Under the pieces are notes generated by a model. The model was not told where the DNA came from, searched no databases, and saw nothing but the letters and a program-made list of their open reading frames with translations. DNA of 64,000 nt from Saccharopolyspora sp. SCSIO 74807 (lineage in GTDB: Bacteria; Actinomycetota; Actinomycetes; Mycobacteriales; Pseudonocardiaceae): assembly GCF_037023755.1 (NCBI RefSeq), contig NZ_CP146100.1, forward strand, positions 5,363,501-5,427,500, given 5' to 3'. A program made the position numbers and the translations under genes. Positions 7,672-61,083 of the stretch are shown one piece after another (the stretch's first letter is position 1; each line of letters begins with the position of its first letter).

Positions 7672-8249
7672 CAATCGACTTTACCCCGCCATCGGTCACC
7701 AACCGCATCACCTTCAGCCCCGCACTGCCGGTACGGCGGGCCGGACTGCAACAACGCATGCCGATGGGGTCGGTGATCAAGATGCACATCGCCTACCCGA
7801 CACCCTTCTGGCGCCACCGCGGGTTGAGCGGCGCGGCCATGAGCACCGACCGCGCCCTGGCGCTCGTCTTCGACCAGACGCTCCAGAACGAGAGCGTCGG
7901 GGTGCTCGTCGGTCTCATCGAGGGCGAGCATGCAGTGCAGTACAGCCAGCTGAGCGTCGACGAGCGTCGCGAAGCCGTCATCGAGGACCTCGTCCACTAC
8001 TTCGGCGAAGACGCCGCGTCTCCGATCGAGTACGTCGATTACGACTGGATCCGGGACGAGTGGGCCGAGGGCGGCTACGGCGCCCACATGCCACCCGGCA
8101 TCGTGACCGGCTACGGCGACACCATCCGTGAACCCGTCGGGCGGATCCACTGGGCCGGCACCGAAACCGCCACCGAACACATCGGCTACTTCGAAGGTGC
8201 ATTGCAATCAGGCATCCGAGCCGCGCGCGAAGTCATCGACGCAGGCTGA
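7672..8249 (+). pseudogene. Flavin amine oxidase, N-terminal half lost
   Basis: About 190 residues match the C-terminal half of bacterial flavin monoamine or putrescine oxidases: TPPSVTNRITFSPALP, RMPMGSVIKMHIAYPTPFWR, the substrate-domain strand, YVDYDWIRDEWAEGGYG, and the FAD-contacting end GRIHWAGTETATEH...GYFEGALQSG. The N-terminal Rossmann motif that binds FAD is absent upstream, where a further 250 residues should be. The frame itself is unbroken in the part that remains. It is a deletion relic. The short gene downstream starts 30 bases after it with its own ribosome binding site. Confidence 0.8.
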
Positions 8250-9600: not shown

Positions 9601-9977
9601 CCGTGGCTTGATCGAAGCATGGGCGCGTCGGCAGAGCTCCGCTCATGCCACCAGGATACGAACGTGGTGCCGTCGATCACCGATCACGGTCATCATCGGT
9701 GGTGAACGGGGTGCGCAGCCGGTGCATGGTGCCGTCGCTCCGGTCTGCCTGCCGGTGATGACGAGGGCTCGGGGTGCTGCGGGGCCGGTCAGGTTCGAGG
9801 AACACGACGGGAGCGACGGGCCTCAGCGTGCTGGATCCATGTCCGGCGGGCGGGCATGCGCCGGGACGCTGCGGCGTGCTGCGCCGATCGACGCTGGCGG
9901 GGCCGTTCCGAGTCCGGCTGCTGGAGTGAACGGGGGAAGAAGGAGGCATGAGTCAGTCCTTTCAGGACAGAGGGCCA
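9601..9977. other. Stretch without a recognisable gene
   Basis: Several overlapping frames are open on both strands, but none has family similarity. A minus-strand frame starting at 9949 with GAAAGGACTGACTC upstream encodes 90 residues of low-complexity, Ser/Arg/Pro-rich sequence. It was not accepted as a gene. Confidence 0.4.
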
Positions 9978-51120: not shown

Positions 51121-53037
51121 GTGACCGAAGCCAAGCACGAGCAGCACACCCAGTGGCTCCCGATCGAGCAGGAGAACAATCCCCGGCTCGGCCGGGACAT
51201 CATCTTCGACTACCTCAAGACCGCCGGTGTCGACCGGCTCTACGGGGTGCCCGGCACCAACGAGATCCCGCTCATCGACGGCACCGACGTTCCGGAGCAC
51301 CGCGTCGAGTACGTGCCCTGCCTGCACGAGAACATCGCCCTCGGCGCCGCCATGGGGTACGCGCGGCACCGGCGGACCGAGACCGGCGACGTCGTGCCCG
51401 GTGCGGTCGGATTGCACGTCACGCCGGGAGTCGGGCACGCGATCGGGAACCTCTTCAACGCGTTCCGGTCGCACATCCCGCTGGTGGTGCTGTGCGGACA
51501 GCAGAACAGCAATCTCCTCATCCAGGAACCGCTGTTGGGCTCGGACCTGGCTCAAGTCGCCAAGCAGTACACCAAGTGGGCCTACGAGGTGCGCGGCCCG
51601 AACGAGATCGGCATGGCCATGCAGCGCGCGCTGAAAACCGCGCTCACACCTCCGATGGGGCCGGTCTTCCTGTCGATCCCGTGGGAGTTCCTGGTGCAGC
51701 AGGGAGCCGATCCGCAGCGCGGCCGGTTCACCAGGATAGCTGGGGAATTCCACGCACAGCCGTCCGAATTGGACAAGGCCGCGGATCTCCTCGCCAAGTC
51801 GCGGTATCCGGTAATCGTCGCCGGTGACGGTGTCGGCGATGCCGAGGCGTGGCACGAACTGCAGGACTTGGCCACGGCCATCGGCGCACCGGTGTACAAC
51901 GAGCAGTCCAGCAGCCACCTCAACTATCCCCACCACCTGGCACATGCGCGCGGCGAGCTGCCCAGCGTGCAGCAACAAGTCCGGCAAGTTCTCGGGCGCA
52001 AAGATCAGGACACGGTGCGGGACACCGTGTTCTTGTGCGGATTCAACGCGCAGGCGCAGCTCGTCATCTACAACTGGGATGACGGCCCCCTGATCCCCGG
52101 GCACCTGACCCAGGTCTACCTGCACAACGATCCGTGGCAGATCGGCAAGAACCACTACGGGGCGGCGGCGCCGCTGGGCGACATCAAGGACGCCTTGCCC
52201 AAGATCACCGCGGCGATCAGGGCCCATCCCGGGTACGACAAGGGGCACGTGGACGGCCTGAACGAGCAGCTGGCGCAGGAAGACCGGTCGCTCGCGCAGG
52301 ATTTCCAGCAGCGGGCGAAGGAGGTCCCGGACACCGGCATCGCTCCCGCGATGCTCGTGAACGCGCTCAACACGGCGCTGCGCGACCACTCGGTCCGCCT
52401 GATCAACGAAGCGTGTTCGGACACCGCGGATTTCCAGCAGGGTTTGTCCTTCGATTCGCCGAGCAGCTACATGTCGTCCGAAGGAGGCTCGCTGGGCTAC
52501 TCGATGCCAGCCAGTCTCGGTGTCGCCGACGCGGTGATCCGCTCCGGTGCGGGCGCGGCGGAGCCGGGCGACAAGCCGCCCATCGTGGTCAACGCGGTCG
52601 GAGACGGATCGGCACTGTTCTACCTGAACACGTGGTGGACCGCGGTCAAGTTCCAGCTCCCGGTGCTGTACCTGATCACGAACAACAAGCAGTACAAAAC
52701 GCTCCGGGTCGGCTTGGACGTGTTGCGGAAGTCCTACGACTGGGATCCCAGCGGCAAGACCGAGTACCTCCATCTCGACGGAGAGCCCCAGCTGTCGTTC
52801 GTGGAGCTGGCGGCGGGCTTCGGTGTCGACGGCTGTCTGATCGAAAACGCGGGCGACCTCGAGCAGGCGCTGGCCGAGGCGGTTCGCGAGGTCGGCGCGG
52901 GCAAGCCCTACGTGGTGGAAGTCCTCACCGACCCGGCCCTTCCGGACATGGGCGAGGTCGACATCAGCACGAACGGCCGTCTCAGCGCGAAGGCGGACGT
53001 CGCCGAACGGGCCATTTGGAACTTCGGCCCCGCTTGA
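51121..53037 (+). CDS. Thiamine-diphosphate-dependent enzyme (acetolactate synthase/decarboxylase family)
   Basis: A 638-residue TPP enzyme. The activating Glu lies in PCLHENIALGAAMGYAR, and the cofactor motif is GDGSALFYLNTWW with NN in LITNNKQYKT. Middle and C-terminal domains fit acetolactate synthase, benzoylformate decarboxylase or related lyases, but it is about 60-80 residues longer than these, with insertions around LGRKDQDTVRD. GTG 51121 follows GAGGGGG. It stands alone, ends 57 bases before a strong terminator and has a perfect palindrome upstream. Substrate, probably a 2-keto acid, is unknown. Confidence 0.85.
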   Translation: MTEAKHEQHTQWLPIEQENNPRLGRDIIFDYLKTAGVDRLYGVPGTNEIPLIDGTDVPEHRVEYVPCLHENIALGAAMGYARHRRTETGDVVPGAVGLHVTPGVGHAIGNLFNAFRSHIPLVVLCGQQNSNLLIQEPLLGSDLAQVAKQYTKWAYEVRGPNEIGMAMQRALKTALTPPMGPVFLSIPWEFLVQQGADPQRGRFTRIAGEFHAQPSELDKAADLLAKSRYPVIVAGDGVGDAEAWHELQDLATAIGAPVYNEQSSSHLNYPHHLAHARGELPSVQQQVRQVLGRKDQDTVRDTVFLCGFNAQAQLVIYNWDDGPLIPGHLTQVYLHNDPWQIGKNHYGAAAPLGDIKDALPKITAAIRAHPGYDKGHVDGLNEQLAQEDRSLAQDFQQRAKEVPDTGIAPAMLVNALNTALRDHSVRLINEACSDTADFQQGLSFDSPSSYMSSEGGSLGYSMPASLGVADAVIRSGAGAAEPGDKPPIVVNAVGDGSALFYLNTWWTAVKFQLPVLYLITNNKQYKTLRVGLDVLRKSYDWDPSGKTEYLHLDGEPQLSFVELAAGFGVDGCLIENAGDLEQALAEAVREVGAGKPYVVEVLTDPALPDMGEVDISTNGRLSAKADVAERAIWNFGPA

Positions 53038-55417: not shown

Positions 55418-55447
55418 TTGACGCCCGCGTCCGGCCGCGGCTACGCT
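55418..55447 (+). promoter_or_regulatory. Sigma-70-type promoter of the transporter operon
   Basis: TTGACG (55418-55423) and TACGCT (55442-55447) are separated by 18 bases and match the -35 and -10 consensus well for an actinobacterium. Transcription would start near 55453, about 120 bases before the first gene. The terminator hairpin then lies inside the leader RNA. Confidence 0.6.
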
Positions 55448-55489
55448 CCCGCGAACAGCACAACTGAAAACCACGTTACTAAGAGACCC

Positions 55490-55539
55490 AGAGAACAGTA
55501 ACCCCATTCGAAGCACGGGGGATGCTGTTCTCTTTTTTT
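55490..55539 (+). terminator. Leader terminator/attenuator, likely GlpP-type target
   Basis: AGAGAACAG (55490-55498) pairs with CTGTTCTCT (55525-55533), with an inner CCCC/GGGG pairing, and is followed by seven T. It is a textbook intrinsic terminator read on the plus strand. Because the upstream gene runs the other way and a promoter lies just before it, its only possible purpose is to stop the transcript of the operon starting 35 bases later. GAACAGCA at the 5' end of the transcript (55453-55460) can pair instead with TGCTGTTC (55523-55530), which would disrupt the terminator stem. A GlpP-family antiterminator gene lies at the end of the operon. Confidence 0.8.
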
Positions 55540-55574
55540 GTGCCCGGCAGGGCCCCACAACGAGGTGGAGGCAG

Positions 55575-56855
55575 GTGAGCGATGTGCGGAGACGGCTGAG
55601 TTATCTGCTGCTGTGCACGTCCGGCGGGGTCATATTCCAGGTGGCCTACATCAGATTCGTTTTCCTGGAACCGACCTATCAGGCGCTCGGACTCAGCGGA
55701 CCGGAATACGGCGACATCATGTCGGTGTTCGGCGCGGTCGCCGCGGTGATGTACTTCGCGGGTGGCTGGTTCGCCGACCGGTTCGCCCCGCGTGCGCTCG
55801 TCGCGACGGCGCTGACGATCACCGGGCTCGCCGACCTGGCGCTGATCGCCGTGCCCGGCTACGCCACCGCGCTGCTCGCGCACGTCGTCATGGCCTTCGC
55901 CGGGATGGCGCTCTATTGGCCGGCGCTGGTGCGCGCGATCGGCTCGTTCGGTTCCTCCGCGCAGCAAGGCAGGTTGTTCGGCTTCCTGGAGGCGATCCGC
56001 GGCGTCACATCGACGGTGATCAGCGGGATCGCCGCGTTGCTGATCGGGACCGCGCTCGCCCCGGCAACAGGGGTGCGCGCGCTGATCGGGACCTATGGCG
56101 TGCTGTGCCTGGTGCTGGCGGGCCTGATCTGGCTCGCGCTGCGCGGCCCGGCCGACGGCATCGCGAGCGGCGAACGTTCGGCCCTGTCGGTGCGCGATCT
56201 GGCCGCGGCCGCGCGGAACAAGTACACCTGGCTGCTCGGCGGATCGATCATGCTGATGTACTGCTTCTACACCACGCTGGGCTACTTCTCCCCGCTGCTG
56301 CAGCACGAATTCGGCGTCACGGCCGCCATGATCGGCGTGCTCGGCGTCGTGCGCAGCTACGTGTTCCAGTTCGTCGCGGGGCCGCTCGGCGGGTTCTGCG
56401 TGGACAAGGTGACCCGGTCCACTCCCCGCTTCCTGCGGCTGGCGTTCGTCGCAGCAGCGGTGTGCGTGGTCGTGCTGCTGTTCCTGCCGCGCGAATCAGG
56501 GTTGAAGTGGGTCGCGGTGGCGCTGATGTTCGCGCTGTCGCTCGTGGTCTTCGCCAGCCGCGGGGTGTACTGGGCGAGCATGACCGAGGCCCGCATCCCC
56601 GAGCACCAGCGGGGCGGCGTGATCGGCCTCGCCTCGGGACTGGCCTACCTGCCGGATGCGTTCCTGCCCGGTCTCGTCGCCAGGTGGATCGGCGACCCCG
56701 GCACGGGCACGGCCGCGCAAGGCGGCTACGGCATCTTGTTCGGCGTGCTGGCCGGTGCCGCCGTCCTGGGGATCGCGCTGACCACGCTGACGCTGCGCGT
56801 GCAGCGACATGAGCCGGACGCCGGACCGCAGCCGCGGCCGGCCGCGGTGCGCTGA
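55575..56855 (+). CDS. MFS transporter of a GlpP-controlled operon
   Basis: A 426-residue major facilitator protein with 12 predicted membrane helices. It shows the motif GGWFADRFAPRALVA between helices 2 and 3 and the pattern GPLGGFCVDKVTR in the second half. There is no signal peptide. GTG 55575 follows GGTGGAGGCAG. It is the first of four genes (transporter, SDR, FAD oxidase, FGGY kinase) that match the content of the E. coli ygcS-ygcW-ygcU-ygcE cluster. The substrate is probably a polyol, sugar acid or related small molecule. Expression should depend on read-through of the leader terminator. Confidence 0.9.
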   Translation: MSDVRRRLSYLLLCTSGGVIFQVAYIRFVFLEPTYQALGLSGPEYGDIMSVFGAVAAVMYFAGGWFADRFAPRALVATALTITGLADLALIAVPGYATALLAHVVMAFAGMALYWPALVRAIGSFGSSAQQGRLFGFLEAIRGVTSTVISGIAALLIGTALAPATGVRALIGTYGVLCLVLAGLIWLALRGPADGIASGERSALSVRDLAAAARNKYTWLLGGSIMLMYCFYTTLGYFSPLLQHEFGVTAAMIGVLGVVRSYVFQFVAGPLGGFCVDKVTRSTPRFLRLAFVAAAVCVVVLLFLPRESGLKWVAVALMFALSLVVFASRGVYWASMTEARIPEHQRGGVIGLASGLAYLPDAFLPGLVARWIGDPGTGTAAQGGYGILFGVLAGAAVLGIALTTLTLRVQRHEPDAGPQPRPAAVR

Positions 56856-56887
56856 CCGACCCGGCTCCTGCACGGAAAGGATTCTCG

Positions 56888-57664
56888 TTGGACATCCAGG
56901 ACTTCTCCCTCGACCTGTTCTCGCTGCGCGGCCGCAACGCCATCGTCACGGGCGGCAACACGGGACTCGGCCGGGCGTTCACGGTGGCGCTCGCGAAAGC
57001 GGGCGCGAACGTCTTCGCGCCCACCGTCGCAGACGACGGCGGCACGACCCGGCAACTGGTCGAGGAAACGGGTGCTCGTCTGGAGACGCAGGAGATCGAC
57101 CTCACCGGGCCGGGTGCTCCCGAGCGGGTCGTGGAGTCCTGTGTGGACGCATTCGGCTCGGTCGACGTACTGGTCAACTCGGCAGGAATCGCCGAGCTCG
57201 CACCGGTCGCGGAGTTCGGCAGGCAGCACTGGGACCCGATGATCGCGCTGAACCTGACCGCGCCGTTCGAACTCGGCTGGTGCGCCGGGCGCCGCATGGC
57301 GCAGCAGGGCCGCGGCAAGATCATCAACATCGCGTCGCTGTTCTCGTTCCTCGGCGGCCAAAGCTCACCGGCCTACGCCGCTACCAAGCACGGCATCGTC
57401 GGCTTCACCAGGGCCTACTGCGACGAGCTCGGCGCGCACAACGTCCAGTGCAACGCGATCGCACCCGGATACTTCGCCACCCCGCTCACCGAGCGGACCC
57501 GGGCCGACCCCGCGCAGAACCAGCGGGTGCTCGAGCACATCCCCGCCGCACGTTGGGGCGAACTGGGCGACTTGATGGGCGCGACGGTCTTCCTCGCCAG
57601 CCGCGTCTCCGACTACGTCAACGGGCACGTCCTGAGCGTGGACGGCGGCTACCTCACCCGATGA
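56888..57664 (+). CDS. SDR dehydrogenase, KduD/YgcW-like
   Basis: A 258-residue short-chain dehydrogenase. The motifs are VTGGNTGLGRAFTVALAKAG, VNSAGI in place of NNAG, the Ser of NIASLFSFLG, and YAATK. It begins MDIQDFSLDLFSLRGRNAIV, typical of the gluconate/deoxygluconate dehydrogenase group. TTG 56888 was taken as start because GGAAAGG lies nine bases upstream. It probably oxidises the imported sugar-like compound with NAD. Its stop overlaps the next gene by four bases. Confidence 0.88.
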   Translation: MDIQDFSLDLFSLRGRNAIVTGGNTGLGRAFTVALAKAGANVFAPTVADDGGTTRQLVEETGARLETQEIDLTGPGAPERVVESCVDAFGSVDVLVNSAGIAELAPVAEFGRQHWDPMIALNLTAPFELGWCAGRRMAQQGRGKIINIASLFSFLGGQSSPAYAATKHGIVGFTRAYCDELGAHNVQCNAIAPGYFATPLTERTRADPAQNQRVLEHIPAARWGELGDLMGATVFLASRVSDYVNGHVLSVDGGYLTR

Positions 57665-59139
57665 CCCGAAGCACCGAGAGCACGGAGACCGAAGTGGACA
57701 ACAACGCCATCATCGACGAGCTGCGCGAGATCGCGGGCCCGCAGCGGGTGGACACCGACGAGCAGCTGCTGCGGGAGGCCAGCGTCGACCGCTTCAAGAA
57801 GTACACCGCGGTCCACGGCATCTACGACGGGCCGCTACCGCTGGCGATCGTGCGCGCGGGCAGCGCCGAGCAGGTGGCCGCGGTCCTGGCGTTCGCGAAC
57901 GAGCACGGCGTCAACATCGTCGCCCGCACCGGTCGCACCGGAACCGAGGGCGGGCTCGAAACCAGTCACGAGCGGACCGTCGTGCTGGACGGGTCCGGCA
58001 TGGCCGAGATCGTGCGCATCGATCCGGTCGACATGCAGGCCACCGCCCAGTGCGGCACTCCGCTGCAAGTGTTGGAGCAGCGCGTGCGCGAGTTCGGGCT
58101 CACCACCGGGCACTCGCCGCAATCCAAGCCGCAGGCGCAGCTGGGCGGGCTGGTCGCCACCCGCTCGATCGGCCAGTTCTCCACGCTCTACGGCGGGATC
58201 GAGGACATGGTCGTCGGCCTGGAAGCGGTGTTCCCGGACGGCTCGATCAGCCGGATCAAGAACGTGCCGCGCCGCGCCGCGGGACCGGACATCCGCCACG
58301 TCGTGATCGGCAACGAGGGCGCGCTGTGCTTCGTCACCGAGGTCACGGTGAAGTTGTTCGCGCACCGGCCGGAGAACGACCACTTCCACGGCTACCTGCT
58401 CGACGACGTTCGCACCGGGATCGAGATCCTGCGCGAGATCGTGACCGCCGGTTACCGGCCTTCGGTGGCGCGGGTCTACTCCGAGCAGGACGCCGCCCAG
58501 CACTTCGCGCACTTCGCCGACGGCAAGTGCGTCGCGGTCTTCCTCGCCGAAGGACCGGCCGGGCTCGCCGAGGCCACCAGCGCGGAGATCGACCGGGTGG
58601 TGCGCGAGCACGCGCACGAACGCGTCGAGCCGGAATTGATCCGCGAGTGGTTCGACGACCTGAACTGGGGCCCGGACAAGATCCGCGCCGAACAGCGGAC
58701 CATGCTCGCCGAACGGCGACTCGGCTACACCACGGAGGTATCCGCCAACTGGTCGGTGATCGGCGACATCTACGAGGCCGCCATCGCCCGGATCACCGCG
58801 GAATTCCCGCGCTTCGCGGACATCACGCTGCTCGGCGGGCACTCCTCGCACAGCTACCAGACCGGCACCAACATGTACTTCGTCTACGACTACCGCATCA
58901 ATTGCGAGCCGCGGGAGGAGATCATCGAGTACCACGTCCCGCTCAACGCGATCATCGTCGAGGAGACGCTGGCCCGCGGCGGATCGATGGTGCACCACCA
59001 CGGCATCGGGAAGTACCGCGCGCCGTGGACCGAGCAGGAGCACGGCAGCGCCTACCCGGTGCTGCGCAAGCTCAAGGACGCCTACGACCCCAACGGAATC
59101 ATGAACCCGGGCACCATCTTCCCCACCGGAGACCGGTGA
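57661..59139 (+). CDS. FAD-linked oxidase, alkyl-DHAP-synthase/GlcD-like (YgcU-like)
   Basis: A 492-residue PCMH-type flavoprotein. The FAD-binding half has ARTGRTGTEGGLETSHERTV and an IGNEGALCFVTEVTV loop. The C-terminal half has the signature GGSMVHHHGIGKYRAPW of the alkyl-dihydroxyacetone-phosphate synthase and glycolate-oxidase group. No CPR cysteine site or membrane helix is seen. It may use FAD to oxidise a hydroxy acid or polyol derivative. ATG 57661 overlaps the SDR stop, and the end shares one base with the kinase start. Confidence 0.88.
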   Translation: MTRSTESTETEVDNNAIIDELREIAGPQRVDTDEQLLREASVDRFKKYTAVHGIYDGPLPLAIVRAGSAEQVAAVLAFANEHGVNIVARTGRTGTEGGLETSHERTVVLDGSGMAEIVRIDPVDMQATAQCGTPLQVLEQRVREFGLTTGHSPQSKPQAQLGGLVATRSIGQFSTLYGGIEDMVVGLEAVFPDGSISRIKNVPRRAAGPDIRHVVIGNEGALCFVTEVTVKLFAHRPENDHFHGYLLDDVRTGIEILREIVTAGYRPSVARVYSEQDAAQHFAHFADGKCVAVFLAEGPAGLAEATSAEIDRVVREHAHERVEPELIREWFDDLNWGPDKIRAEQRTMLAERRLGYTTEVSANWSVIGDIYEAAIARITAEFPRFADITLLGGHSSHSYQTGTNMYFVYDYRINCEPREEIIEYHVPLNAIIVEETLARGGSMVHHHGIGKYRAPWTEQEHGSAYPVLRKLKDAYDPNGIMNPGTIFPTGDR

Positions 59140-60503
59140 TGGCGGACTACCTGCTCGGCATCGACAACGGCTCCCAGAGCACCAAGGTCGCCGTGTTCGA
59201 CACGCGCGGCACAGTGCACGCCCGGGCCCGCGTTCCGTTGCGCCCCAACGATTCCCCGCGCCCCGGTGTCGTCGAGCATCCGGACGACGACCTGTGGGAT
59301 TCCGTAGGTGCCGCGACCCGCGCGGCGCTGCGCGACTTCGCAGGCGGTCCGGAGCAGATCCGCGGCGTCGGGCTCTGCACGATCCGGTTCTGCCGCGCCA
59401 TGTTGCGCGCCGACGGCACGCTCGCCCAGCCGGTGCTGAGTTGGATGGACGAACGCGTTTCGCGGCCGTACCAGCACGTGAATCCGGACGTCCGCTACGT
59501 CACCACGTCTTCCGGCTACATCACCGCGCGGATGACCGGGCGGTTCCGCGACACCGCGGCGAACTACCAGGGCGTGTGGCCGATCGACACCGACAGCTGG
59601 GACTGGGTCGCAGCACCCGACATCCCGCGGGAGATGCTGTTCGAGCTCGTGCAGCCCGGCGAGAAGCTCGGCACCGTCACCGCGCGAGCAGCCGCGCACA
59701 CCGGGCTGCCGGAAGGTCTGCCGGTGTTCGCCACGGCCAACGACAAGGCGACCGAGGCGCTCGGCAGCGGCCTCGCCGACGACCGCAGCGTGCTGCTGTC
59801 GATGGGCACCTACATCGCCGGCATGACCACCGGAACGCGCAACGTTGCCGACGCCGAGGCGTTCTGGACCAACTTCGCCTGCCGCCCGCGCGAATACCTC
59901 TACGAGAGCCGCGGCATCCGCCGCGGCATGTGGACGGTCAGCTGGCTGCGCGACCTGCTCGGCTCCGAAGATTGGCTCAACGAAGGTGCGGCCACCGTAC
60001 CGGCCGGTTCCGACGGGCTGATCGCGGTGCTGGACTGGCTGGCCCCGGTCGACGCGCCGTTCCGCAAGGGCGCGTTCCTCGGATTCGACGGCAGGCAGGG
60101 ACCGTTCCACATGTACCGGGCGGTGCTCGAAGCGATCGCGCTGACCATGTGCGCCAACGCGGGCGACATGGCAGGCGAACTGGGCGCGGAGTTCGAGCGA
60201 GTGCTGGTCTCCGGCGGTGGCGCCGGATCCGACGTGCTCGTGCAGATCGTCGCCGACGCGTTCGACCGGCCCGCGCGGCGTGCGCAAGGCGGGGCGGAGC
60301 TCGGCTCGGCGATCTGCGCAGGCGTCGGGCTCGGCCTCTTCGCCGGTTTCGACGAGGCGGTGGCGGCGATGGTCCGCAATGGCAGCGAGTTCGTTCCCGA
60401 CCCGGAGGCGCACGAGCATTACCGGCGGCTGCGCGAGGTGTACCGCGCACTGCCCGGCCACACCGACCCGCTGTTCGCGTGGCTGGCCACCGCTGGGCGG
60501 TGA
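59139..60503 (+). CDS. FGGY-family carbohydrate kinase (YgcE-like)
   Basis: A 454-residue sugar/polyol kinase. The ATP-fold motifs LGIDNGSQSTKVAVFDTRG, VLLSMGTYIAGM and VSGGGAGSDVLVQIVADAF are present, as is a catalytic Asp in TANDKATEALG. FGGY members phosphorylate glycerol, xylulose and related polyols. The substrate here is not identified. The phosphorylated product is a good candidate for the signal read by the GlpP-like protein, as glycerol-3-phosphate is in Bacillus. It ends seven bases before the convergent antiterminator gene. Confidence 0.9.
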   Translation: MADYLLGIDNGSQSTKVAVFDTRGTVHARARVPLRPNDSPRPGVVEHPDDDLWDSVGAATRAALRDFAGGPEQIRGVGLCTIRFCRAMLRADGTLAQPVLSWMDERVSRPYQHVNPDVRYVTTSSGYITARMTGRFRDTAANYQGVWPIDTDSWDWVAAPDIPREMLFELVQPGEKLGTVTARAAAHTGLPEGLPVFATANDKATEALGSGLADDRSVLLSMGTYIAGMTTGTRNVADAEAFWTNFACRPREYLYESRGIRRGMWTVSWLRDLLGSEDWLNEGAATVPAGSDGLIAVLDWLAPVDAPFRKGAFLGFDGRQGPFHMYRAVLEAIALTMCANAGDMAGELGAEFERVLVSGGGAGSDVLVQIVADAFDRPARRAQGGAELGSAICAGVGLGLFAGFDEAVAAMVRNGSEFVPDPEAHEHYRRLREVYRALPGHTDPLFAWLATAGR

Positions 60504-60510
60504 AACCTGC

Positions 60511-61083
60511 CTACATCGACCAAACGTCCACATTGGACGAGGCGATGGCGGTCGCGCCCGCGCTCAGCGCGGCCAGCACGTCGTTCTTGTCGCAGACCAG
60601 CCCGCCCGCGATGATCGGCACGTCGGTGTCGTTGCGCAGCCACTCGATCACCCGCGGCACGCACCCGGGCAGGATTTCGATGTAGTCCGGCCGCGAGATC
60701 GCCAACTGCTTGCCGAGGTTGTGGTACGAGAACGAGTCGACGAGGAAGAACCGGTGCACCGCAAGCAATCCGCGCTTCCGGGCCGCCTTGACGATCGACG
60801 CCTTGCTGCTGAGCACCCCGTCCGCCCGGGTGCGTTCGCCCACGAACTCCACGGCGACGTCGCGGCTTTCCAGCCCCTCGACCATGTCCACGTTCACCAG
60901 CACGACCTTCCCGGCCGCGCGCAGCCGGTCGACCAGGTCCGGCAGCGTCAAGATCGAGCCGCAGAGCAGGAAGACCACGCCTGGTTCCGAGTCGATGACC
61001 GAGCGCGCCCCGGCCTCGTCCTTCACGCTCGCCACGACCGGGGAATCCAACAGGACATCACGCACCGGCGCACTATGGCACAC
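60511..61083 (-). CDS. GlpP-family antiterminator (glycerol-3-phosphate-responsive type)
   Basis: A 190-residue protein of the GlpP family, a TIM-barrel RNA-binding antiterminator. Matching elements are VVFLLCGSILTLPDLVDRLR, KVVLVNVDMVEGL (family HVDLV...), VHRFFLVDSFSYHN, YIEILPGCVPRVIEWL and the hallmark PIIAGGLVCDKNDVLAALSA followed by GATAIASSN. In Bacillus subtilis GlpP with glycerol-3-phosphate binds leader RNAs and prevents their termination. The E. coli homologue YgcP lies beside ygcU/ygcE-like genes. Starts at GTG 61083 or GTG 61062 are possible. It is convergent with the kinase and is the likely regulator of the leader terminator at 55490-55539. Confidence 0.85.
   Translation of the reverse strand: MCHSAPVRDVLLDSPVVASVKDEAGARSVIDSEPGVVFLLCGSILTLPDLVDRLRAAGKVVLVNVDMVEGLESRDVAVEFVGERTRADGVLSSKASIVKAARKRGLLAVHRFFLVDSFSYHNLGKQLAISRPDYIEILPGCVPRVIEWLRNDTDVPIIAGGLVCDKNDVLAALSAGATAIASSNVDVWSM

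Follow-up and report, generated by a model that had tools for sequence, protein, structure and literature searches.

Introduction

Proteins of the BglG/SacY/LicT group act by stabilising ribonucleic antiterminator (RAT) hairpins, which are weak and overlap a terminator. A passage in a review lists LicT as an antiterminator of this RAT-hairpin kind and describes how GlpP bound to glycerol-3-phosphate (G3P) binds the leader antiterminator in Bacillus subtilis, where it is reported also to stabilise glpD mRNA (PMC7430163), and relief of a leader terminator by GlpP is stated in a further paper (PMC9604022). Antitermination by proteins of the PF04309 family is already known from Bacillus. Here we analyse a 64,000-nt window (the whole stretch of DNA under study) from the 6.7 Mb genome of Saccharopolyspora sp. 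SCSIO 74807. There, the leader of a four-gene operon very probably works by antitermination through the neighbouring PF04309 protein, as a YgcP-type variant of the GlpP system of Bacillus.

The locus resembles B. subtilis GlpP, with its targets glpD, glpFK and glpTQ, in combining a PF04309 protein with a leader terminator, and metabolite-dependent read-through would be expected. It differs from the glycerol system in what it controls, namely genes for a major facilitator superfamily (MFS) transporter, a short-chain dehydrogenase/reductase (SDR), a flavin adenine dinucleotide (FAD)-dependent enzyme and an FGGY-family kinase, and in a regulator that is 26–27% identical to the GlpP proteins of Listeria (26%) and Cytobacillus (27%). 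A proposed protein-held weak hairpin overlapping a terminator is shared with BglG/SacY/LicT, but the protein is unrelated, with PF04309 alone over the cut-off, and the RNA is different. The likeness to the Escherichia coli ygc genes pointed out in a preliminary description of this DNA stands: the regulator is 44% identical to YgcP, the SDR 60%, the FAD enzyme 62% and the kinase 45% to their E. coli counterparts, and the same leader is found at both E. coli operons. YgcP is annotated in E. coli only as a putative anti-terminator, and in the open-access literature we found no paper on YgcP control or on this leader. To our knowledge, terminator attenuation by a metabolite-binding protein has rarely been described in high-GC actinobacteria. 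A 2010 survey names these bacteria as a group with few predicted terminators (PMC2965389).

A leader with two exclusive folds

The preliminary description had proposed a circuit in which a leader terminator is relieved by the adjacent GlpP-like protein, and sequence comparison now supports such a circuit strongly. The intrinsic terminator it had noted, with a tail of seven T, is confirmed at 55490–55539 on the plus strand: positions 55490–55500 pair with 55523–55533 in an 11-bp stem closed over an inner 4-bp stem, the U-run occupies 55533–55539, and the predicted fold reaches -23.3 kcal/mol (z -3.96; 0 of 200 shuffles as stable). What that description did not contain, and the present analysis found, is an alternative hairpin, P1 (55475–55502, plus strand), in which GTTACT at 55475–55480 pairs with AGTAAC at 55497–55502. 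Its loop, AAGAGACCCAGAGAAC, carries two GAGA boxes, box 1 at 55483–55486 (four positions invariant or at least 90% conserved in the alignment described below) and box 2 at 55491–55494 (all four invariant); their starts lie 8 nt apart here, within a box-to-box register of 7–9 nt. Because the 3' arm of P1 sits inside the 5' arm of the terminator, the two folds are mutually exclusive, and box 2, open in the antiterminator, is paired in the terminator.

Only 36 nt separate the U-run from the start of the MFS gene. The adjacent upstream gene, a zinc alcohol dehydrogenase on the minus strand, is divergent from the operon, and the closest upstream plus-strand open reading frame that we took by eye to be a gene ends at 53037, 2.4 kb away; the terminator hairpin can therefore be assigned to the operon leader. 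No ATG, GTG or TTG occurs between 55448 and 55521, so a leader peptide is not expected. With P1, two GAGA boxes, a shared U-run terminator and a YgcP-like gene, the locus carries what we call a YgcP-type element.

Conservation and distribution

A leader of this type is present at all 20 loci whose GlpP resembles the window protein (the window and 19 fetched loci, some of them sharing a genome or species). The alignment holds 22 distinct leaders: 14 from Pseudonocardiaceae, 3 from Streptomyces, 1 from Leucobacter and 2 each from E. coli and Enterococcus. For P1, 94.8% of the cells are paired and five of seven pairs show changes on both sides, with a covariation score of 0.329 against 0.185 in shuffles; the terminator gives 95.3%, five of eleven pairs, and 0.213 against 0.146. 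Neither score was reached by any of 500 shuffles, in keeping with the covarying stems that the preliminary description had anticipated. On a tree of 21 loci, P1 pair 6–28 goes from A-U to G-C or back five times, each time with a change on both sides. Every one of the 22 leaders has a predicted strong U-run terminator, at -19.3 to -31.0 kcal/mol for the terminator part against -1.4 to -8.8 kcal/mol for P1. The leader stands at the start of the operon whether the MFS, SDR or FAD gene comes first, which marks it as a control element.

Two held-out models extend these comparisons. Model R2, built from the 14 Pseudonocardiaceae leaders alone and run on 29 loci (540 kb), recovered the leaders of S. 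clavuligerus (6.2e-17), two other Streptomyces (3.4e-15 and 8.3e-12) and Leucobacter (3.7e-14), both E. coli elements (yqcE 3.4e-10, ygcW 1.6e-9) and two from Enterococcus (5.6e-7 and 7.4e-7), each of these strong matches preceding operon or transporter genes. Among the weaker R2 matches, one lies just downstream of glpP in Enterococcus raffinosus (0.0039) and one echoes the S. clavuligerus site on the minus strand (0.0087); the remaining 14 have E 0.17–9.8. In the opposite direction, model R3, built from the 8 leaders from outside Pseudonocardiaceae (Streptomyces, Leucobacter, E. coli and Enterococcus), had a sole match in the window, at 55473–55537 (E 8e-9), and this was also its sole match in the whole genome (8.3e-7), with no second leader. 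R3 further matched 15 of 15 Pseudonocardiaceae loci with a window-type GlpP and 0 of 5 with a divergent one. A descriptor scan for two GAGA boxes plus an overlapping terminator gave weaker matches too, for example in Enterococcus coding regions; these were discarded, the scan having returned 13 hits in three shuffled rounds.

Co-occurrence, likewise anticipated in the preliminary description, was assessed in 200 Pseudonocardiaceae genomes. PF04309 matches were found in 24, over the cut-off in 20 and of the window type in 15; each of these 15 has a single copy of the leader, and the other 185 genomes have none. The operon FAD gene (E up to 1e-80) occurs in 21 of the 200, in 15 together with GlpP and leader and in 6 with neither. 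These six operons (FAD gene 67–83% identical) keep SDR-FAD-FGGY and have lost the MFS gene; model R1, run with filters off and E up to 10, found no match in them, and the stretches fetched contained no U-run hairpin. Since these SDR-FAD-FGGY operons without GlpP are also without the leader, the leader follows the regulator and not the operon. Across 394 genomes of the class, R1 matched only in the window's own genome. What these comparisons demonstrate, at the level of sequence, is that the leader has the parts described, that its two folds exclude each other, that both stems covary and that the leader occurs together with this type of GlpP.

The same data bear on two other explanations. A hairpin followed by a U-run would work as a terminator by itself, and the leader might be nothing other than a constitutive attenuator or an ordinary terminator, for instance of a short RNA, without any regulator. 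We regard this as extremely improbable: a covarying alternative stem and a conserved loop would be needless, the gene upstream is divergent, and the six GlpP-less operons show neither an R1 leader nor, in the stretches fetched, a U-run terminator. The second possibility is a stand-alone riboswitch, with a metabolite bound by the P1 loop itself and some other role for the GlpP-like protein. The highly conserved loop and the two exclusive folds, like those of many riboswitches, would fit, but P1 is a simple stem (mostly 6–7 bp) with a purine-rich loop of 14–16 nt, in our judgement too plain for a known aptamer. The leader also tracks the GlpP gene (15 of 15 operons with it, 0 of 6 without), similar boxes occur in glp leaders of the kind that GlpP reads in B. 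subtilis, and no Rfam 15 family reached its gathering score in the window, the matches at the leader being far below gathering and chance-like. A riboswitch thus appears very unlikely.

Divergent PF04309 proteins form a group of their own, about 30% identical (L043–L047, L051–L052 and L118–L123), at which the models found no GAGA-box leader where searched; at L043–L047, five Pseudonocardiaceae loci, the gene lies beside a different FAD gene.

The putative regulator and its proposed mechanism

As the preliminary description had it, a transporter-SDR-FAD-FGGY operon faces a convergent GlpP-family gene, and Pfam matches bear this out. The gene (60511–61083, minus strand) encodes the proposed antiterminator, a YgcP-type protein that matches Pfam G3P_antiterm (PF04309) over the whole profile, positions 1–173 of 173, with 193.3 bits against a cut-off of 27. 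It is the sole such match in the genome, and no other Pfam domain is over its cut-off, including the PRD and CAT domains of BglG/SacY proteins. Its solved relative is 3kts (7e-26), and the GlpP of Saccharopolyspora sp. HNM0986 is 100% identical to it. A record named 'Bacteriophage sp.' (MT835755.1, 7965–8549) holds a PF04309-like protein 45% identical to the window protein; the reading frames beside it resemble, by eye, genes for a kinase and metabolic oxidoreductases. The record looks like a contig of a gut bacterium and not a phage.

How the leader would operate can be outlined from the Bacillus GlpP precedent, from which we infer protein binding, ligand dependence and the direction of the switch. 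Transcription would start at about 55454, judging from the promoter. The predicted energies of P1 and terminator argue that termination is the default and that P1 must be held: without inducer the weak P1 would yield to the much stronger terminator, which would take up the P1 3' arm and GAGA box 2, and transcription would end ahead of the MFS gene. With inducer, a phosphorylated, G3P-like metabolite of the pathway, the liganded GlpP-like protein would grip both GAGA boxes in the loop and hold P1 closed, the terminator could not form and the operon would be transcribed. Through the same element the protein might instead work in reverse, or chiefly affect the stability or translation of the mRNA, as the reported stabilisation of glpD mRNA by B. 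subtilis GlpP (in the passage of PMC7430163 cited above) would allow. Antitermination fits best, however, with a strong U-run terminator in every one of the 22 leaders that is overlapped by the P1 3' arm, and we consider the alternative decidedly unlikely.

Following the precedent again, the inducer would be a G3P-like phosphometabolite. Since the protein is closer to YgcP than to the glycerol-type GlpP proteins, G3P itself cannot be assumed as the ligand. R111, D116-S117, E136, P139 and G161 are invariant in 12 diverse PF04309 members of both YgcP and glycerol types, consistent with a ligand of a shared kind, whereas H110, C164 and D165, invariant in 10 YgcP-type sequences, differ in the GlpP of Listeria and Cytobacillus, which would fit a different ligand. 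Our guess is the product of the FGGY kinase, probably a substituted or oxidised C3-type phosphate (a substituted glycerol phosphate), because among solved proteins the FAD enzyme is nearest to alkyl-dihydroxyacetone phosphate (alkyl-DHAP) synthase. The circuit may equally be right with another inducer, such as plain G3P or the product of the FAD step, and we give this variant, compatible with antitermination as outlined, not far short of an even chance. The residues common to both types favour it, and as the FAD enzyme resembles alkyl-DHAP synthase, a later intermediate could also be G3P-like; H110, C164 and D165 speak against it, as does the absence of glpF, glpK and glpD from the four operon genes, which do not make up a glycerol regulon.

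Several points weigh against the antitermination reading or limit its reach. All of the evidence for it is computed. One of five covariation measures was not above shuffles (further pair types, 8 against 8.1 for P1 and 9 against 8.5 for the terminator), and a sign test on independent pairs gave p 0.0625, although with five pairs it cannot reach 0.05. The 15 leader-positive genomes are largely the model training set, the absences being independent, so that independent evidence is limited to the held-out R2 and R3 tests and those absences. In the six GlpP-less operons the loss of the leader cannot be separated from the loss of the first gene, as the MFS gene is gone from all of them. The GAGA-box leader is, as far as the models can tell, not universal for the PF04309 family. 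It was missing from all five divergent Pseudonocardiaceae loci and from nine genomes with weak PF04309 matches in a set of 249 from another actinobacterial family, where R2 found 0 leaders in a search without a known positive and all nine PF04309 proteins were divergent (30–35% identity); no credible match was seen at the PF04309 loci of Klebsiella, Burkholderia, Cupriavidus, Arthrobacter, Fusobacterium and Vescimonas. The apparent link to the glp leaders of Bacillota depends on an eye reading of boxes and 3–5 bp stems. The models reach just two of those leaders, and weakly (Cytobacillus glpD 0.31, 0.345 and 3.8; Paenibacillus glpP 3.1), and at E up to 10 did not match those of Listeria, Paenibacillus glpD or Staphylococcus cohnii, and at Fusobacterium glpF no element was apparent by eye. 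Finally, control other than by the leader is likely at the E. coli ygc genes, since the ygcW-yqcE spacer is named in a genomic-SELEX (systematic evolution of ligands by exponential enrichment) list for CRP (PMC3105977).

Similar leaders in Bacillota, E. coli and Enterococcus

Seven Bacillota leaders were compared by eye: Cytobacillus glpF and glpD, Listeria glpD and glpF, Paenibacillus glpD and glpP, and Staphylococcus cohnii glpF. Like the window leader they have two GAGA boxes and an overlapping terminator, and the boxes are preceded by one like CAAGTTAATA; the ACAACYGAATA-like sequence of the actinobacterial leaders lies at the analogous place. Box spacing is 5 nt in Listeria glpF, where the terminator 5' arm begins just past box 2; in the other six the spacing is 8 nt and the arm begins within box 2. 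The YgcP-type antiterminator stem is 6–7 bp and covarying, whereas the alternative stems of these Bacillota relatives are short, 3–5 bp, with none seen in S. cohnii. The S. cohnii leader lies on a 30 kb plasmid (CP054809.1) carrying glpF; the plasmid is not among plasmid records with a PF04309-like match, so that the regulator would be encoded elsewhere in the host.

E. coli K-12 has two leader elements between ygcW and yqcE, facing outwards, one for each of the operons yqcE-ygcE and ygcWUSRQ, whereas the window has one operon and one leader; no upstream box was found in the E. coli leaders, and the flavoprotein genes ygcQR are added. The yqcE leader stretch was matched in 5015 of 5426 E. coli genomes. 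Over the 360-nt ygcW-yqcE stretch two further strains differ by 5 and 4 single-base changes, none of them in the ygcW element or in the yqcE stems or boxes and one on the first flanking base of the yqcE element. Rfam gave 15 weak matches in this intergenic region and none over gathering, the best being the SurA small RNA with 25.9 of 100 bits. Riboswitch predictions assigned to ygcW in an earlier paper lie 3.5 and 4.2 kb away according to that paper's own table (PMC4448311).

The features that look new are the YgcP-type element with its covarying exclusive antiterminator, the occurrence of this element in three phyla, and what it predicts for E. coli. The element would give a defined RNA target and mechanism to PF04309 proteins that, outside Bacillus, are annotated by analogy alone, and for the uncharacterised ygc cluster of E. 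coli it predicts which protein is the regulator and which two operons are regulated. Because a reporter assay of read-through is feasible in E. coli K-12, the leader would be a direct tool for finding the ygc substrate: a compound that induces read-through should be the ligand or become it. It is possible, although we hold the idea only tentatively, that one old PF04309 and GAGA-box switch serves glycerol genes in Bacillota and a ygc-type phosphometabolite pathway in Actinomycetota, Enterococcus and E. coli, that YgcP controls two divergent operons, and that the FGGY kinase converts a substituted glycerol into a new G3P-like metabolite, the inducer.

A second PF04309 gene of Enterococcus gilvus, flanked by a glycerol dehydrogenase gene and an FGGY-FAD pair, may represent a third specificity, and its locus L115 contains degenerate leader-like elements at 7756–7812 and 9603–9659 (E 0.17 and 0.041) before neighbouring genes. 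At the E. raffinosus locus (L060, 9810–11039) an IS110 transposase gene lies between the SDR gene and the glpP-like gene with its leader-like site; the SDR gene directly follows gene and site in E. gilvus.

Other features of the locus

The sigma-70-like promoter claimed in the preliminary description is present at 55418–55447 on the plus strand (TTGACG 55418–55423, 18 nt, TACGCT 55442–55447). All 14 Pseudonocardiaceae leaders are preceded by a TTGA-type promoter, with an 18-nt spacer in 13 and 17 in one, at a variable distance from the hairpin. Within at most 90 nt upstream the pattern also occurs at both Enterococcus leaders, and it was not found at the 3 Streptomyces, 1 Leucobacter and 2 E. 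coli leaders. A generic promoter scan listed none at 53–64 kb, and a generic terminator scan with a loop limit of 8 nt did not list the leader terminator; these misses are no evidence against either feature.

Between promoter and antiterminator lies the upstream box CAACTGAAAA (55461–55470, plus strand), an ACAACYGAATA-like sequence. Scored against CAASYKAAYA, 12 of 18 actinobacterial leaders match at 9–10 of 10 positions, five at 8 and one at 7; the seven Bacillota glp leaders score 8–10, and those of E. coli and Enterococcus 7, like shuffles, although the pattern was read from the sequences scored and the shuffle values are therefore not independent. Some leaders (e.g., L029, L032, L033 and L035) have by eye an extra hairpin of about 20 nt after the upstream box and abutting the antiterminator, which the window leader does not have. 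For the conserved GUGCCC that follows the U-run, inspection by eye showed no consistent pairing partner, and a further pairing there was discounted.

The four operon genes are tightly packed on the plus strand. The MFS transporter gene (55575–56855) has a GTG start and matches Pfam MFS_1 (E 5.3e-26). The SDR dehydrogenase (56888–57664), YgcW-like, is KduD-like and has KduD-like enzymes as its nearest solved relatives, with scores below the KduD equivalog cut-offs. The YgcE-like FGGY kinase (59139–60503) is under the cut-off for each of the 12 NCBIfam families listed, including 76–77 bits with the GlpK profiles (cut-offs 498 and 590), and its nearest solved relatives are FGGY, autoinducer-2 and glycerol kinases. 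For the YgcU-like FAD-dependent enzyme, a putative oxidase (57661–59139), the best solved relatives are alkyldihydroxyacetonephosphate synthases (2.1e-40), with which it has an HHHG-(I/V)-GK motif in common; this suggests chemistry on a DHAP- or glycerol-ether-like compound. In Saccharopolyspora flava, the match to the FAD gene crosses one in-frame TGA, and that copy may be broken or misread.

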